In this document: positions 7,586 to 12,837 of the stretch, one piece after another
Position numbering within the stretch: position 1 is the first letter of the stretch
Layout of the letters: each line of letters starts with the position of its first letter
Position numbers and translations under genes: made by a program
The notes under the pieces: generated by a model
Told to the model about the DNA's origin: nothing
What the model saw: the letters and a program-made list of their open reading frames with translations, nothing else
Database searches by the model: none
Assembly: GCA_031279475.1 (NCBI GenBank)
Contig: JAITIL010000066.1
Location: 1-32,755, forward strand
Source: Prevotellaceae bacterium
GTDB taxonomy: Bacteria; Bacteroidota; Bacteroidia; Bacteroidales; UBA932
DNA: 32,755 bases
Direction of reading: 5' to 3'

Positions 7586-7616
7586 AGGTCTGCACGTTTT
7601 TTTGTTCGCAGAATCT
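7586..7616 (+). repeat. Hairpin-forming repeat element, copy 1
   Basis: This 31-bp element begins AGGTCTGCACG, continues with a T-run and ends CGCAGAATCTT. It is almost identical to 11106-11136. TCTGC (7589-7593) can pair with GCAGA (7608-7612), with AC/GT inside, around a T-rich loop. It lies 8 bp after the DUF4998 stop and 43 bp before the rhamnosidase ATG. It could attenuate or terminate transcription between the uptake and enzyme halves of the PUL; that role is inference. Confidence 0.6.
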
Positions 7617-7658: not shown

Positions 7659-10097
7659 ATGCGTAATATTTTAAATAACAGTGTAGCTGCAAGAATTTGT
7701 TTCATATTGTTCCTGTTGGCTATTGCCGCCCTGCCGGCGCCGGCGGCCGGATTAACAACGGCCTTGGTACAGAAAGCCGTTCCGGTATGGGCGGCAGGGC
7801 GTGAAAAGGAAATGAACCTGAGTCTCGGTTTCCGGGGTGTTTTTCAAACGCAGCGTGGCCAGGCGGCACGTTTGAAAATCACAGCCTCCTCGCTCTACAG
7901 GGTGTTTATTAACGGGACGTTTGTGGGGTCGGGTCCGGCGCGCGCCGCACATGGATATTTCCGTGTAGATGAATACGAGCTCGGCAAACTGGTGAAAACC
8001 GGTGAAAACATTGTGGCGGTGGAGGTGGCCGGCTACAACGTCAACTCCTTCTATACGCTTGATCAACCCTCCTTCCTGTTGGCCGAGGTGGAAGTGGACG
8101 GCAAGGTGGCGCTCGCTACGGGCAGCAAGGGTTTTGATGCATTTCAGCTGTCTGAACGGGTGCAAAAAACGGAGCGTTACAGTTTTCAGCGCCCCTTTAC
8201 GGAATATTATCGCATGAAAGAAGGGTATGACCGGTGGCGTAACTCGGCCGGAACACCGCTCACAGATGTAAAGCTGTCCGTGCAGCCAAAGGTGCACCTG
8301 CTCCCGCGCAACGTGCTGTTGCCCGAATTCAACATCATCCGTCCCGTGTCCGTATATGCTAAGGGAACGATGAAAAAAATTATCCCCGACAATTACCACA
8401 AAGACCGGTCGCTGACGCAGATAAGCCCTGCACTCAAGGGGTACACGGAAGCGGAGCTTGAAGTGGCGCCCTCGCAAAGGATACAGGAATTGGTAACCGA
8501 TACGCGGGAAATTATGAATAAACCGGCGGCGGCATTGAAAACACTCCCATTGAAGGCTCACGGGTTTTATATTTACGATTTCGGAATAGATTACTCCGGT
8601 TTTATCGGCGCAACAATAACCTGCAAAAGCCCGGCAAAACTGTATTTTTATTTCGACGAGCTGCTGACAGACGGCGATGTGAACACCAAACAGCGCCAGG
8701 GCGACGTCAACAACAAGATTGGCTATGAACTGGCGCCGGGCGTCTATGACTTGGAAACGTTTGAAACGTACACCTTCAAGTACCTGAAGATAATTCTCAT
8801 GGAAGGCGATTGCCAAATTGAAAAGGTATATCTCAGGGAATTTGCCTATCCCGAAAACAAAAAAGCCACGTTTCAAAGCAGCAATTTCAAGTTGAACAAG
8901 ATATTTGACGCCGCGCAGCAGACCTTCCGCCAAAATGCGGTAGATGTGTTCACCGACTGTCCCGGGCGCGAACGGGCTGGCTGGCTATGCGACAGCTATT
9001 TTACCGCTATCATGGAAAAGGAATTTACCGGAAAGTCGGCCATCGCCTACAATTTTTATGAGAACTACGCCCTTCCGGAAACGTTCAAAGACCTGCCCGA
9101 CGGGATGATACCCATGTGCTATCCCGCCGACCATTATGATGGCAATTTCATACCAAACTGGGCGTTATGGTTTATCGTGCAGGTAGACGACTATGCCCGC
9201 CGCGGTGGCGATCCGGCGCTGATAAGCCGGTTGAAACCGAGAATAGAGAAACTGCTGCGATATTTTTCCAAATTTGAAAATGAAGACGGACTTCTTGAAA
9301 AACTTGAAAAGTGGATATTTGTCGAATGGTCGAAAGCCAATGATTTTGTGAACGACGTCAATTATCCGTCCAACATGCTCTACGCTGCGGCGCTGGATGC
9401 GGCCGCCCGTTTATATGGCAACCCCGACTGGGAACAGAAAGCGGAAAATGTCCGGCAAGCCGTCTTGCGGCAGTCGTTTAACGGCGACTTCTTTGTAGAT
9501 AATGCCGTGCGCGAAAACGGAAAATTGAACGTTACGGAAAACACTACGGAAGTGTGCCAGTATTACGCCTTTTTCTTTAACATTGCCACACCCGAATCGC
9601 ATCCCGCGCTGTGGAAAAAGCTCGTCACGGAATTTGGCCCCAACCGCCGCGCTTATCCATCGGTTTTTGAGGCCAACGCCTTCATCGGAAACTACCTGCG
9701 CATGGCTGTCCTGTCACGCTACGGACTACAAAGCCAGTTGATGCTGGAAATCCAGGACTATTTCTATTCCATGGCCGACCGTACAGGCACGCTGTGGGAA
9801 AACATGCACCATTATGCCAGCTGCAACCACGGTTTCGCCTCCTATATCGGGCATCTACTGTACAGCGATGTACTTGGCGTCAGTCATATTGACTACACCG
9901 GCAAGGAAATCACAATCCGCTTCACCGACCTCGTGCTCGACAGTTGCAGCGGCGCTATGCCGATAGGCGACGATGCGGTGGCATTGAAATGGACGCGCTC
10001 CGGCAACAGGATTGACTATTCGCTGAAAACGCCGCAAGGCTACAAAGTAAAAATCGAAAACCGGAGCACGGCGGAAATACGGGAAGTCATAGAATAG
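7659..10097 (+). CDS. GH78-type alpha-L-rhamnosidase, exported
   Basis: This enzyme is predicted to hydrolyse terminal alpha-L-rhamnose from plant glycans. The 812-residue product has a Sec signal peptide (about 1-30, ALPAPAAG) without a lipobox cysteine, so it is probably periplasmic. N-terminal beta-sandwich domains cover about 45-390, including the rhamnosidase-like YRVFINGTFVGSGPARAAHG (80-99). The (alpha/alpha)6 barrel begins near 405. It carries DCPGRERAGWLCD, which gives Asp433, Glu438 and Asp445 in the D-x4-E-x6-D spacing I recall for the catalytic cluster of bacterial RhaB. Glu714 in TLWENMHHYASCNHGFASY is the likely general base. It is shorter than many GH78 enzymes. An uncharacterised GH78-like specificity remains possible. 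Confidence 0.86.
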   Translation: MRNILNNSVAARICFILFLLAIAALPAPAAGLTTALVQKAVPVWAAGREKEMNLSLGFRGVFQTQRGQAARLKITASSLYRVFINGTFVGSGPARAAHGYFRVDEYELGKLVKTGENIVAVEVAGYNVNSFYTLDQPSFLLAEVEVDGKVALATGSKGFDAFQLSERVQKTERYSFQRPFTEYYRMKEGYDRWRNSAGTPLTDVKLSVQPKVHLLPRNVLLPEFNIIRPVSVYAKGTMKKIIPDNYHKDRSLTQISPALKGYTEAELEVAPSQRIQELVTDTREIMNKPAAALKTLPLKAHGFYIYDFGIDYSGFIGATITCKSPAKLYFYFDELLTDGDVNTKQRQGDVNNKIGYELAPGVYDLETFETYTFKYLKIILMEGDCQIEKVYLREFAYPENKKATFQSSNFKLNKIFDAAQQTFRQNAVDVFTDCPGRERAGWLCDSYFTAIMEKEFTGKSAIAYNFYENYALPETFKDLPDGMIPMCYPADHYDGNFIPNWALWFIVQVDDYARRGGDPALISRLKPRIEKLLRYFSKFENEDGLLEKLEKWIFVEWSKANDFVNDVNYPSNMLYAAALDAAARLYGNPDWEQKAENVRQAVLRQSFNGDFFVDNAVRENGKLNVTENTTEVCQYYAFFFNIATPESHPALWKKLVTEFGPNRRAYPSVFEANAFIGNYLRMAVLSRYGLQSQLMLEIQDYFYSMADRTGTLWENMHHYASCNHGFASYIGHLLYSDVLGVSHIDYTGKEITIRFTDLVLDSCSGAMPIGDDAVALKWTRSGNRIDYSLKTPQGYKVKIENRSTAEIREVIE

Positions 10098-10148
10098 TGG
10101 TTAACGGTTAATGAACATGCGGTTTTTAATCACTAACCGTTAACCACT
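10096..10148 (+). repeat. Perfect 15-bp inverted repeat at the rhamnosidase stop codon
   Basis: AGTGGTTAACGGTTA (10096-10110) and TAACCGTTAACCACT (10134-10148) are exact reverse complements around a 23-nt spacer. The left arm overlaps the TAG stop codon. The RNA would form a stable 15-bp stem at the 3' end of the rhamnosidase message. No T-run follows, so it is not a standard intrinsic terminator; it could protect the 3' end or mark an old insertion border. Confidence 0.7.
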
Positions 10149-10166
10149 AATTTCGCTCTTTGACGT

Positions 10167-10185
10167 ATTGGTTTACACGCTTAAT
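10167..10185 (+). repeat. Left arm of 19-bp inverted repeat around the DUF3791/DUF3990 module
   Basis: ATTGGTTTACACGCTTAAT matches the reverse complement of 11080-11098 at 18 of 19 positions; the outermost 15 bp are perfect. The two arms enclose exactly the promoter and both genes of the small module. No target-site duplication is visible outside the arms, and no transposase or recombinase lies inside. Confidence 0.7.
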
Positions 10186-10253
10186 TTAATGTGCTAATGT
10201 GACTAATTGTTTAATGTGATTAATTAATTTAAAATACTATCACATTCAATTAT

Positions 10254-10268
10254 CGTAATTCGTAATTG
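10254..10268 (+). repeat. Left copy of a 15-bp direct repeat (CGTAATTCGTAATTG)
   Basis: The same 15 bases recur at 11050-11064. The two copies bracket the gene pair more tightly than the 19-bp inverted repeat does. Each is itself two copies of CGTAATT, and a further CGTAATTG lies at 11071-11078. It may be a short dispersed intergenic repeat rather than an attachment site. Confidence 0.6.
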
Positions 10269-10273
10269 TTTCG

Positions 10274-10281
10274 TATCTTTG
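10274..10281 (+). promoter_or_regulatory. Bacteroidetes -7 box (TATCTTTG) for the DUF3791 gene
   Basis: TATCTTTG matches the TAnnTTTG -7 consensus of Bacteroidetes and lies 25 bp before the ATG at 10307. No convincing -33 TTG is seen about 19-20 bp upstream, so the promoter may be weak. Confidence 0.5.
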
Positions 10282-10306
10282 TGGTGGTTTTTAAGAAGTA
10301 AAGACT

Positions 10307-10543
10307 ATGAATACAGCGGCATTAGACAAGCAAACGAGTGACAAGGTAAGCTTCATTGCTTTCATTATTCCCGAATTTGCAGCAGCGTACAAAATGAAAA
10401 TATCCGACGCCTACCGTTATCTAAAAAAATACGGCGGATTGGATTTCCTGCACAAGCACTGGTGGGCATTGCATACTGACAACAAGTATTACACACTGCT
10501 GGATATATACGACATTTGCCGGCAAAACGGAGGATTGCGATGA
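10307..10543 (+). CDS. DUF3791-family small protein
   Basis: This is a 78-residue soluble protein of unknown function. The body (SDKVSFIAFIIPEFAAAYKM, then SDAYRYLKKYGGLDFLHKHW) is the alpha-helical DUF3791 pattern. The family is generally found directly upstream of DUF3990 genes. Its TGA stop overlaps the ATG of the DUF3990 reading frame in an ATGA arrangement (10540-10543), typical of translationally coupled pairs such as toxin-antitoxin or effector-immunity genes. It has its own -7 box. Here the downstream partner is broken, so this gene may now be an orphan. The neighbours on both sides are PUL enzymes with no functional link to it. Confidence 0.8.
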   Translation: MNTAALDKQTSDKVSFIAFIIPEFAAAYKMKISDAYRYLKKYGGLDFLHKHWWALHTDNKYYTLLDIYDICRQNGGLR

Positions 10544-11044
10544 AGCTGTATCACGGCAGTTATATGAAAATCACGGAAATTGACCTGTCGAAAGGGGGCA
10601 TGGCTCGACTTTGTAGTTATGAACCGCGATGAATCGCATAAAGAGGCTCGTCACGAATATGATTTTGTCGAAGGCCCCGTTGCCGATGACAAAATACAAT
10701 ATCGACTGGATATGTTTTTACGGGGACGAATATCTCGCGATGTTTTTCTGGAACAACTGTCTCATCATGAACCTACGCACCAGATTTGTTTTTGTACGGT
10801 TAAGTCATTACAAACTATTACACTTTCGGAGAATGAGCCTGTGTGGAACATCGAAGACATCTCCGAATCGCTACTCGAAAAATTAATGCTCGACAATCAA
10901 ATAGACGAAATAAAAGCAGCCGATTTGTTTTATAACTCCGATACATTTGCTCAACTCGAAGACGAAAACTCCAAACTTAACCTCAGCCCGTGGCAAGAAA
11001 TCTATGAAATGCTAAAGAAAGAACTGAAAACGCATAACGGATAG
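10540..11044 (+). pseudogene. DUF3990-family gene, internally deleted and frameshifted
   Basis: The reading frame opens MKLYHGSYMKITEIDLSKGG and then stops after 30 codons (TGA at 10630). A different frame resumes without a gap at WLDFVVMNRDESHKE and runs to the TAG at 11042. It includes the family-typical YDFVEGPVADDKI and EPTHQICFCT. Aligned by eye with the intact DUF3990 gene at 24633, about 52 residues are missing at the junction near 10600, including the conserved DFGxGFYxT segment. DUF3990 resembles ADP-ribosyltransferase-like folds, so the lesion removes part of the presumed active-site region. The second frame stays open for roughly 140 codons, so the damage may be recent. A functional short form using an internal start is less likely. 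Confidence 0.82.
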
Positions 11045-11049
11045 CTTTT

Positions 11050-11064
11050 CGTAATTCGTAATTG
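11050..11064 (+). repeat. Right copy of the 15-bp direct repeat
   Basis: CGTAATTCGTAATTG is identical to 10254-10268 and starts 6 bp after the last stop codon of the broken DUF3990 gene. Confidence 0.6.
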
Positions 11065-11079
11065 AAAACTCGTAATTGA

Positions 11080-11098
11080 ATTTAGCGTGTAAACCAAT
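11080..11098 (+). repeat. Right arm of the 19-bp inverted repeat
   Basis: ATTTAGCGTGTAAACCAAT is the reverse complement of 10167-10185 with one mismatch. It lies 8 bp before the second hairpin repeat element and about 110 bp before the alpha-galactosidase start codon. Confidence 0.7.
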
Positions 11099-11105
11099 TT
11101 TCAAA

Positions 11106-11136
11106 AGGTCTGCACGCTTTTTTGTGCGCAGATTCT
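11106..11136 (+). repeat. Hairpin-forming repeat element, copy 2
   Basis: This has the same core as 7586-7616 (AGGTCTGCACG, a T-run, then CGCAGATTCT). TCTGC (11109-11113) pairs with GCAGA (11128-11132). It lies 76 bp before the GH27 start codon. Because it sits between the boxed module and the PUL enzymes, it was probably part of the PUL before the module arrived. Confidence 0.6.
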
Positions 11137-11211
11137 AATAAAAAGTAAAATTTGTGTAATTCGTAAAATATGAAAAAGGATAATACATTATCAAAAAACA
11201 AAATAAAAAAT

Positions 11212-12837
11212 ATGAAAACAAAATGGTTAATGAGTGTAGCGGGTGCAGCCTTGATGTTGTTCCTTGCAGGATGCGGCAGAGAAGAGAAAGCCGCACCGGG
11301 TACTATGAACGGCACGGCACCCATGATGGGATGGAGTTCGTGGAATGCCAACCACATCAACATCAATGAAACATTATTGAAGGCAACCGCCGATTCAATG
11401 GTTTCACTGGGCTTGAAAGACGTGGGATACGAGTGGGTAAATATTGATGATGGCTATTTTAACGGGCGCGACGCCAAAGGACATTTGCAGGTCAACGCCA
11501 AATTCCCCAACGGGATGAAAGTGATTGCCGATTACATCCGTTCCAAAGGGCTGCATCCGGGCATTTATTCCGAAATCGGGCAGCACACCTGCGGCTCGGT
11601 GGGCGATAACGATGCGGCAGGCAAAAATTCCGGTTTATACGGACATGAGGAGCAGGATTTACGGCTGTTTTTCGACACGTGGGGCTACGAATTTATCAAA
11701 GTGGATTATTGCGGCGGTCTCCGCCAGGGATTGAACGAAGAGGTTACCTACACCAATGTGGCGAACATCATCCGCAGCCTCGAGCGGGAATTAGGCCGCA
11801 AGCTGCGCTACAACATCTGCCGCTGGGGGTTCCCCGGCACGTGGGCGGCCGGTATTGCCGGCTCGTGGCGCATATCGGGCGATATTGCCGATAATTTTGC
11901 GTCACTCAAATACATCATTGACCTGAATACCTATCTGGCGCCCTACGCTTCGCCGGGACACTACAACGACATGGACATGCTGCAACTGGGACGCGGCCTG
12001 ACACCGGACGAAGAAAAAACGCATTTCGGGATATGGGCGATCATGAGTTCCCCGCTCATCATCGGTTGTAATTTCGAGGGAATACGCCAATCGACACTGG
12101 ATATTCTAAAAAATACGGAAATCATTGCCGTCAATCAGGACGACTTGGGTTTGCAAGCCGAACTGGTCGCCAAAAATGAGGATGGCCATGTTTTCGCCAA
12201 ACCCATTGAAACGGCGCACGGAAAAGTACGTGCGGTGGCGCTTTTCAATGCCGGCAATGCGGAAAAAGTCATCCGGGTAGCGTTTGCAGACATCCAACTG
12301 AGCGAAAAAGCGAAGGTGCGCGATTTGTGGGCGCACACAGACTTGGGCGAGTTTACGGGCTATTACGAAACCCTTGTCCCGGCGCATGGAACGGCCATGT
12401 TGCGCATAGAGGGCAAAGCGGCTATCGACAAACTCCGCTATGAGGGCGAATACGCCTACATGAACAAATTCACAACCATCAATCAGGCGGAAAATGCCCG
12501 CTTTCAAAAGGTGACGAATGTCCCTGTTTCCGGCGGATACGTCATGGGCTGGTTGGGCAACAGTAGCGACAATTGGGCGGAATACCGCGACGTATATCTT
12601 TCCAAAGGGGGCACATACACCTTCAAACTGTACTACATCTGCGGGGAAAACCGCGATGTGTCGCTGATTGTCAACGGAAGGGAATACCGTTTGGAAAACC
12701 TCAATTCGGGAGGGAACACATGCGCTACGGCAAAAATAGACATCGAACTCCGTGCGGGAAGCAACGTGATTCGTTTGGCGAACAGCACGACTTGGGCGCC
12801 CGATATCGACAAATTTGAACTGATTCCGAAAAACTAA
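11212..12837 (+). CDS. GH27 alpha-galactosidase-like lipoprotein with C-terminal CBM
   Basis: This is predicted to release terminal alpha-galactose, or beta-L-arabinopyranose, which some GH27 enzymes cleave. From the ATG at 11212 it is 541 residues with lipobox LAGC (Cys21), so it is membrane-anchored. The TIM barrel begins with PMMGWSSWNANHININE. Asp165 in FIKVDYCGG is the expected nucleophile and Asp224 in WRISGDI the expected acid/base. GHYNDMDMLQLG is a conserved structural motif. A C-terminal beta-sandwich barrel domain ends near 400, and residues about 410-541 look like a CBM35/CBM6-type module. An in-frame ATG at 11170 was rejected because the signal peptide starts at 11212. The gap to the GH43 gene is only 4 bp, so they are co-transcribed. 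Confidence 0.92.
   Translation: MKTKWLMSVAGAALMLFLAGCGREEKAAPGTMNGTAPMMGWSSWNANHININETLLKATADSMVSLGLKDVGYEWVNIDDGYFNGRDAKGHLQVNAKFPNGMKVIADYIRSKGLHPGIYSEIGQHTCGSVGDNDAAGKNSGLYGHEEQDLRLFFDTWGYEFIKVDYCGGLRQGLNEEVTYTNVANIIRSLERELGRKLRYNICRWGFPGTWAAGIAGSWRISGDIADNFASLKYIIDLNTYLAPYASPGHYNDMDMLQLGRGLTPDEEKTHFGIWAIMSSPLIIGCNFEGIRQSTLDILKNTEIIAVNQDDLGLQAELVAKNEDGHVFAKPIETAHGKVRAVALFNAGNAEKVIRVAFADIQLSEKAKVRDLWAHTDLGEFTGYYETLVPAHGTAMLRIEGKAAIDKLRYEGEYAYMNKFTTINQAENARFQKVTNVPVSGGYVMGWLGNSSDNWAEYRDVYLSKGGTYTFKLYYICGENRDVSLIVNGREYRLENLNSGGNTCATAKIDIELRAGSNVIRLANSTTWAPDIDKFELIPKN

Follow-up and report, generated by a model that had tools for sequence, protein, structure and literature searches.

The window, a 32,755-nt stretch of DNA from a Prevotellaceae bacterium, carries a small module in the middle of a glycan-degradation locus (PUL), between a rhamnosidase and the other PUL enzymes. 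The module had been described as an inverted repeat enclosing a promoter, a DUF3791 gene and a broken DUF3990 gene, with no recombinase inside, and both its position and its contents were borne out. The repeat (10167–10190 and 11075–11098) has arms of 24 nt that are 92% complementary, the outer 15 positions being perfect. Boundaries drawn at these arms cut through the element; the unit extends from about 10151, 4–9 nt before a boxA at 10155, to about 11123, where a T-run ends. As DNA ends the arms are unequal, the right one being the 5′ half of a terminator hairpin (11084–11118 plus the T-run) and the left one the tail of a boxA-like signal. With the left end termed A and the right end B, the features are as follows:

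7586–7616, plus strand: scar between the DUF4998 and rhamnosidase genes, corresponding to another B terminator's 3′ half (from comparison with a congener, G002)
7659–10097, plus strand: upstream host gene, alpha-L-rhamnosidase, co-directional
10155–10171, plus strand: boxA-like antitermination signal GCTCTTTGACGTATTGG, the 5′ part of end A (from matches to rRNA-operon boxA)
10167–10190, plus strand: putative anti-arm ATTGGTTTACACGCTTAATTTAAT, the left repeat of the preliminary description (complementary to the terminator 5′ arm; covariation in the family)
10274–10281, plus strand: −7 element TATCTTTG of the internal promoter, Bacteroidetes-type, downstream of A (by its sequence)
10307–10543, plus strand: DUF3791 protein, 78 aa, probable antitoxin or partner (Pfam PF12668, E 1.4e-14; PADLOC candidate PDC-M13A)
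10540–11044, plus strand: DUF3990 gene remnant, predicted ADP-ribosyltransferase-type toxin (Pfam PF13151, C-terminal part, E 2.6e-19)
11075–11098, plus strand: right repeat of the preliminary description, including the B 5′ arm common to terminator and putative antiterminator
11084–11123, plus strand: end B, intrinsic terminator AGCGTGTAAACC-loop-GGTCTGCACGCT followed by a T-run (predicted fold −14.2 kcal/mol, z −4.7)
11170–12837, plus strand: downstream host gene, melibiase, co-directional

The two cargo genes are adjacent and lie in one operon, in the manner of toxin-antitoxin (TA) modules, and both match the PADLOC candidate systems PDC-M13/M10 (DUF3791 + DUF3990). However, the toxin gene of the window is broken near 10597, where an internal deletion of 182 bp has put it out of frame, as seen against an intact 236-aa homologue in a congener (L019), and the bracket is not specific to DUF3791/DUF3990. 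Intact homologues of the remnant occur in relatives. The earlier suggestion that the module is a relic holds for the toxin gene, which is dead, but not for the bracket, which is intact. A search for a PDB relative of DUF3990 found none. The C-terminal part of the DUF3990 protein in the window (P0002, residues 91–151) matches proteins that in PDC-M13 systems are small and encoded separately, and P0002 thus seems to include an additional component by fusion.

The bracket recurs around unrelated genes. Further copies in the same genome, which the preliminary description had proposed to look for, enclose an AAA-type ATPase (contig C61) and, with a variant end pair, a 351-aa protein (contig C2). 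The repeat pair is far beyond chance, recurring in its own genome and in dozens of others while reversed-pattern controls stay near zero; in the family, 37 of 150 genomes, spread over 11 of 26 genera, contain the left-end pattern, and the reversed control matched almost nowhere. Scanning GTDB genomes located 83 loci, the majority from draft MAGs and nearly all in Bacteroidales, mostly from termite and cockroach gut lineages and also from Parabacteroides, Bacteroides and a goat-colon genome. The preliminary description had named a common dispersed repeat unlinked to DUF3791/DUF3990 as what would refute it, and this applies by half: the arms are dispersed and occur with other cargo as well, but they are not a passive repeat. 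In 73 complete cassettes the order is constant (A, promoter, cargo, B). The cargo comprises one or more genes, most of them oriented alike; a median of 31 nt separates the final stop codon from B, and A and B are 0.06–2 kb apart. Cargo includes PIN/VapC, RelE/ParE/YafQ, HigBA, MNT/HEPN, GNAT and DUF3791/DUF3990 proteins, as well as AAA_14/DUF4143 ATPases, PD-(D/E)XK proteins and four-helix proteins. Gene-less brackets of 62–192 bp also occur (L051, L031, L147), and some A-ends are without a recognizable B. Bracketed cassettes can stand in head-to-tail arrays (L052, G005:C42; L053, G050:C35; L271, G050:C160), where the next boxA lies close behind the previous terminator. Viral carriage was rejected, as the exact A-end was absent from IMG/VR viral contigs.

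Cassettes lie within host operons. Of the nearest upstream genes, 60 of 66 point the same way as the cassette (60:6, p 3e-12), as do 59 of the 68 nearest downstream genes (59:9, p 4e-10), and both remain significant against a background of two-thirds. Among 67 cassettes, 58 have the promoter signal TAnnTTTG no more than 110 nt after A, where 5.4 would be expected; before A the signal is at chance (2/71). After B it is not above chance either (6/72, against 3.2 expected), so the downstream host genes appear to depend on read-through across the terminator.

End A consists of GYTCTTTGACRTATTGG fused to TTTACACG, with the family-wide consensus GYTCTTTGACRTATTGGTTTACACG. GYTCTTTGACRTATTGG is identical or near-identical to the boxA of rRNA operons (rrn) in related cassette-bearing genomes; 16S is missing from the MAGs of the genus, and the rrn boxA was therefore taken from wider relatives. 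In one of these, Th196P3bin81, GCTCTTTGACATATTGG stands ~180 nt before 16S in the rrn leader and matches the window boxA at 16 of 17 positions, the mismatch falling inside the A/G variation of end A. In PG1894_26, GGTCTTTGACATATTGG lies downstream of 16S, and related boxA forms occur before and after 16S, in rrn leaders and spacers, in other genomes. From these matches, the first 17 nt of end A are identified as the rRNA-operon boxA of these bacteria. GCTCTTTGACGTATTGG itself is found again, as an exact 17-nt match to window A, in the genome from which the window comes, at the end of contig G000:C131; by its context this site is only probably an rrn spacer, since a search for rRNA or tRNA on the stub found none. 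A second multi-copy boxA family, with a TATATTTG-like promoter and then TCTTTGACGTATTGAATTTGATATATTAAAAATATATCGCTTTAACTTTTATTC (L253–L264, L266, L267), has roughly ten copies in G053 and several in G018; since boxA follows directly after the promoter, these sites look like leaders of some repeated operon type.

An intrinsic terminator makes up end B, with a 5′ arm (CGTGTAAACCAAT) complementary to A; the family-wide form of B is AGCGTGTAAACCAAT-loop-GGTTTACACGCT plus a T-run. A T-run of at least 5 is present in 73 of 73 members, a count to be read knowing that the T-run was also a selection criterion for B. In the window, the hairpin was missed by a simple consensus terminator scan, which had a loop limit of 8. 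Complementarity between A and the B 5′ arm (B5′) is likewise kept in all 73, but because the arm belonged to the search pattern, changes within it weigh more than this count. In 48 distinct cassettes, 8 of 15 pairs of the A:B5′ helix are changed on both sides (shuffle mean 1.5; reached in 0 of 500 shuffles), a figure inflated by kinship among the sequences, with independent arm changes numbering about five. The 13-bp core of the helix is 97.7% paired, the covariation signal is lost when the A:B partner is slid, and the terminator helix, which shares the B5′ strand, covaries too. Few variant arms emerged from the order-wide search, while an unbiased search for boxA in the family revealed them: the same boxA is joined to different complementary arms in L231 (TTTGTGCG/CGCACAAA) and in L251 and L067 (TTCACACG/CGTGTGAA); in L272 (ATTGTGTG/CACACAAT) the terminator's 3′ arm suits B5′ less well than A does; and L271 has a compensatory 1-nt deletion. 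At the B-loop positions opposite the UU of A, nearly all changes are A to G (20 vs. 5), which keeps a wobble pair, against 4 vs. 25 at the adjacent loop position (Fisher p 1e-6), although this purine bias could also stem from a DNA site bound by protein.

Predicted energies favor the long-range pairing. The A:B duplex is stronger than the terminator hairpin in 68 of 73 cassettes (means −22.2 vs. −16.0 kcal/mol), and in the window the difference is that between −30.5 and −14.2 kcal/mol. Unconstrained minimum free energy (MFE) folding pairs A with B in the 976-nt window transcript, and A with B5′ in 44 of 60 cases. Two mutually exclusive helices, both with covariation, share one strand, as in terminator/antiterminator pairs, and the repeat pair is most likely better read as RNA than as DNA ends, that is, as a boxA and an antiterminator/terminator pair acting in the transcript.

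Evidence of mobility bears on this reading. The preliminary description had listed a non-autonomous cassette among its options, and the finding of the same ends around unrelated cargo, of the same cassettes at different loci, of an empty site and of an intact cassette in a congener where the window has a scar supports it. The empty site, which had been proposed as something to look for in relatives, is a single clean case: in G337, 12 bp separate a TonB-type receptor gene from the gene that follows it in the operon, at a junction that in L136 and L248 holds two different cassettes with similar brackets. The congener G002 has a cassette with an intact DUF3990 gene where its DUF4998 gene (88.7% identical) is followed by the rhamnosidase gene (81.8%); at that junction the window has only the terminator scar, its cassette sitting one gene further on, and from this comparison the scar is read as the mark of another insertion one gene upstream of the present cassette. 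G036 has a gene-less bracket before its rhamnosidase. In three Parabacteroides, flanks and bracket are common to all and the cargo differs, so that cargo has been exchanged within one bracket. Between related cassettes at different loci, homology begins 4–9 nt before A; it stops at the T-run in one pair (L145/L245) and extends further in others. No target duplication was visible in the window or in the comparison of L136, L248 and G337, the relatives being only 65–77% identical. Among Bacteroides relatives, no intact junction was found that could serve as an empty site for the L113 cassette, and Parabacteroides G159 was rejected as an empty site, since an extra gene is present there. The C61 cassette has an 18-bp direct repeat, AATTTTCAAAAAGTTTGC (minus strand), before A and again in B (L006, 1952–1969 and 3354–3371); it derives from a B end, which suggests recombination between B ends or insertion beside an older B.

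Copies that begin shortly before A and in one pair end at the T-run, an empty site, a scar and inverted ends around varied cargo would all be expected of a non-autonomous transposon (a MITE or mobile insertion cassette) that is mobilized in trans, with A and B as its terminal inverted repeats and the terminator as an incidental feature. We consider this unlikely. The arm sequences change while complementarity is kept, in contrast to fixed terminal repeats; B has an extra half-palindrome and a T-run that A lacks, so that the outer parts of the ends differ; the identity of boxA is left unexplained; and gene-less brackets, the strong co-direction with host genes, the lack of visible target duplication and the failure to find a transposase all count against it. 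A Y1 (RAYT-type) transposase was rejected as the mover because it is present in only two cassettes (L130 and L144). The first, at L130:3798–4620 in Parabacteroides PFB2-10, holds a REP-associated Y1 transposase with flanking GCCGTCTGCTTTAGCTGACG repeats, and as the transposase is accompanied there by its own REP-like repeats, it looks like cargo; a relative of PFB2-10 has a RelE-type pair at the same locus. An IS91/Helitron-like GTTC target was also rejected, because the GTTC belongs to boxA.

The elements are probably small accessory cassettes that reside in host operons and carry around them an RNA antitermination device, which keeps the host operon transcribed. End A would supply an rrn-type boxA and an anti-arm of 12–15 nt, followed by the internal promoter, the cargo and end B. 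Transcripts from the cassette promoter would begin after A, lack it, and end at B, so that cassette and host would be insulated from each other. Host-operon transcripts entering the cassette would carry A. NusB/S10 would bind boxA and keep A close to the RNA exit channel. The rRNA operon offers a proposed model for this, in which boxA tethers the leader there for pairing with the trailer (PMC10250234). The 5′ arm of B, as it emerges, would pair with A over 13–24 bp and not with its own 3′ arm, the terminator would fail to form, and the downstream host genes would be transcribed; because such pairing lets host transcripts pass B, insertion would be close to non-polar. NusB binding, tethering and read-through are steps that we infer; boxA identity, covariation, operon context and calculated energies are what the sequences show. 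When no phage protein takes part, boxA in E. coli works chiefly against Rho (PMC5725501), and the disarming of an intrinsic terminator must therefore rest on A:B pairing over 0.06–2 kb, which tethering would have to assist; boxA may additionally shield the cassette interior from Rho.

The rRNA operon is among the closest likenesses to this antitermination bracket: it has the same boxA in related genomes, and immediately 3′ of boxA begins a strand whose pairing partner lies far downstream, although in the cassette the loop consists of accessory genes with their own promoter and the 3′ partner is the arm of an intrinsic terminator. The leader-trailer topology (PMC10250234) would also suit a bracket whose A:B helix is cut by RNase III, excising cassette RNA from the host transcript with antitermination as a secondary effect. 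The 24-nt helix of the window fits such processing, but most helices are only 13–17 bp, and a strand shared with the terminator points to a termination switch; as the main function processing is quite improbable, though RNase III cleavage at A:B could coexist with antitermination.

Cellular boxAs outside rRNA operons are known from suhB and, in Citrobacter koseri, from a site just upstream of a ParE-like toxin gene, which boxA represses through NusB (PMC5725501). By this precedent, boxA in read-through mRNA might keep translation of the TA cargo low. However, those boxAs lie in the 5′ UTR of the gene that they repress, whereas in the cassettes boxA stands upstream of the internal promoter and is matched to a terminator, so the main cargo transcripts would be without it; A:B complementarity, gene-less brackets and ATPase cargo would also be unexplained, and repression of this kind is highly improbable as the purpose of the bracket. 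Inverted repeats flank a promoter in these cassettes and invertible loci are common in Bacteroidales, but the earlier suggestion of a segment flipped by a recombinase deserves next to no credence, since all copies share one internal polarity, running from A through promoter and genes to the terminator at B, and are mostly co-directional with the flanking genes, and the outer sequences of the two ends differ.

Other likenesses to the antitermination bracket are partial. Attenuators and riboswitch expression platforms share its two mutually exclusive helices with one common strand and a U-tract terminator; in contrast, the cassette strands are 0.06–2 kb apart with genes and a promoter between them, and the choice appears to be set by where transcription starts and not by a ligand. 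Integron gene cassettes are similarly small, interchangeable, TA-rich, arranged in tandem and palindromic at the 3′ end, but the bracket here is two-ended and has its own promoter, and the cassettes are usually single in operons; an integron-type site was rejected because the A and B consensus, by inspection, lack GTTRRRY and no integrase lies inside. BoxA, antiterminator and TA cassette are each of a known kind. A search of open-access papers did not turn up their combination; on boxA together with cassettes, or with TA in operons, the one relevant case there was the ParE-like toxin of Citrobacter.

Accessory genes inserted in an operon normally cost polarity, and the cassettes appear to solve this with a portable antitermination bracket. 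It is fairly likely that this bracket borrows the rRNA antitermination machinery, making the insertion of a class of interchangeable Bacteroidales cassettes, mostly TA or defence-like, into useful operons transcriptionally neutral, and that a bracket can outlast its cargo and act as a docking place for other cargo; because of such neutrality, selection would not remove the cassettes. If true, this would explain TA and ATPase modules inside Bacteroidales operons and give boxA a cellular role outside rRNA in their phylum. It would also provide a compact tool for adding independently expressed genes within operons without polar effects, and make the boxA tethering model testable on a simple reporter.

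Additional structures adjoin the window cassette. Directly before A, after the rhamnosidase stop codon, lies a strong AT-rich hairpin, TAGTGGTTAACGGTTAATGA/TCACTAACCGTTAACCACTA (10095–10149, z −6.6), and related TGGTTAATG repeats also precede A in L019 and L031. Past the B terminator, an arm GTGCGCAGAC (11107–11132) can pair with the B 3′ arm GTCTGCACGC, so that the T-run becomes a loop; this extra arm is present in L019, L041 and L088 and is limited to the window's genus and some relatives.
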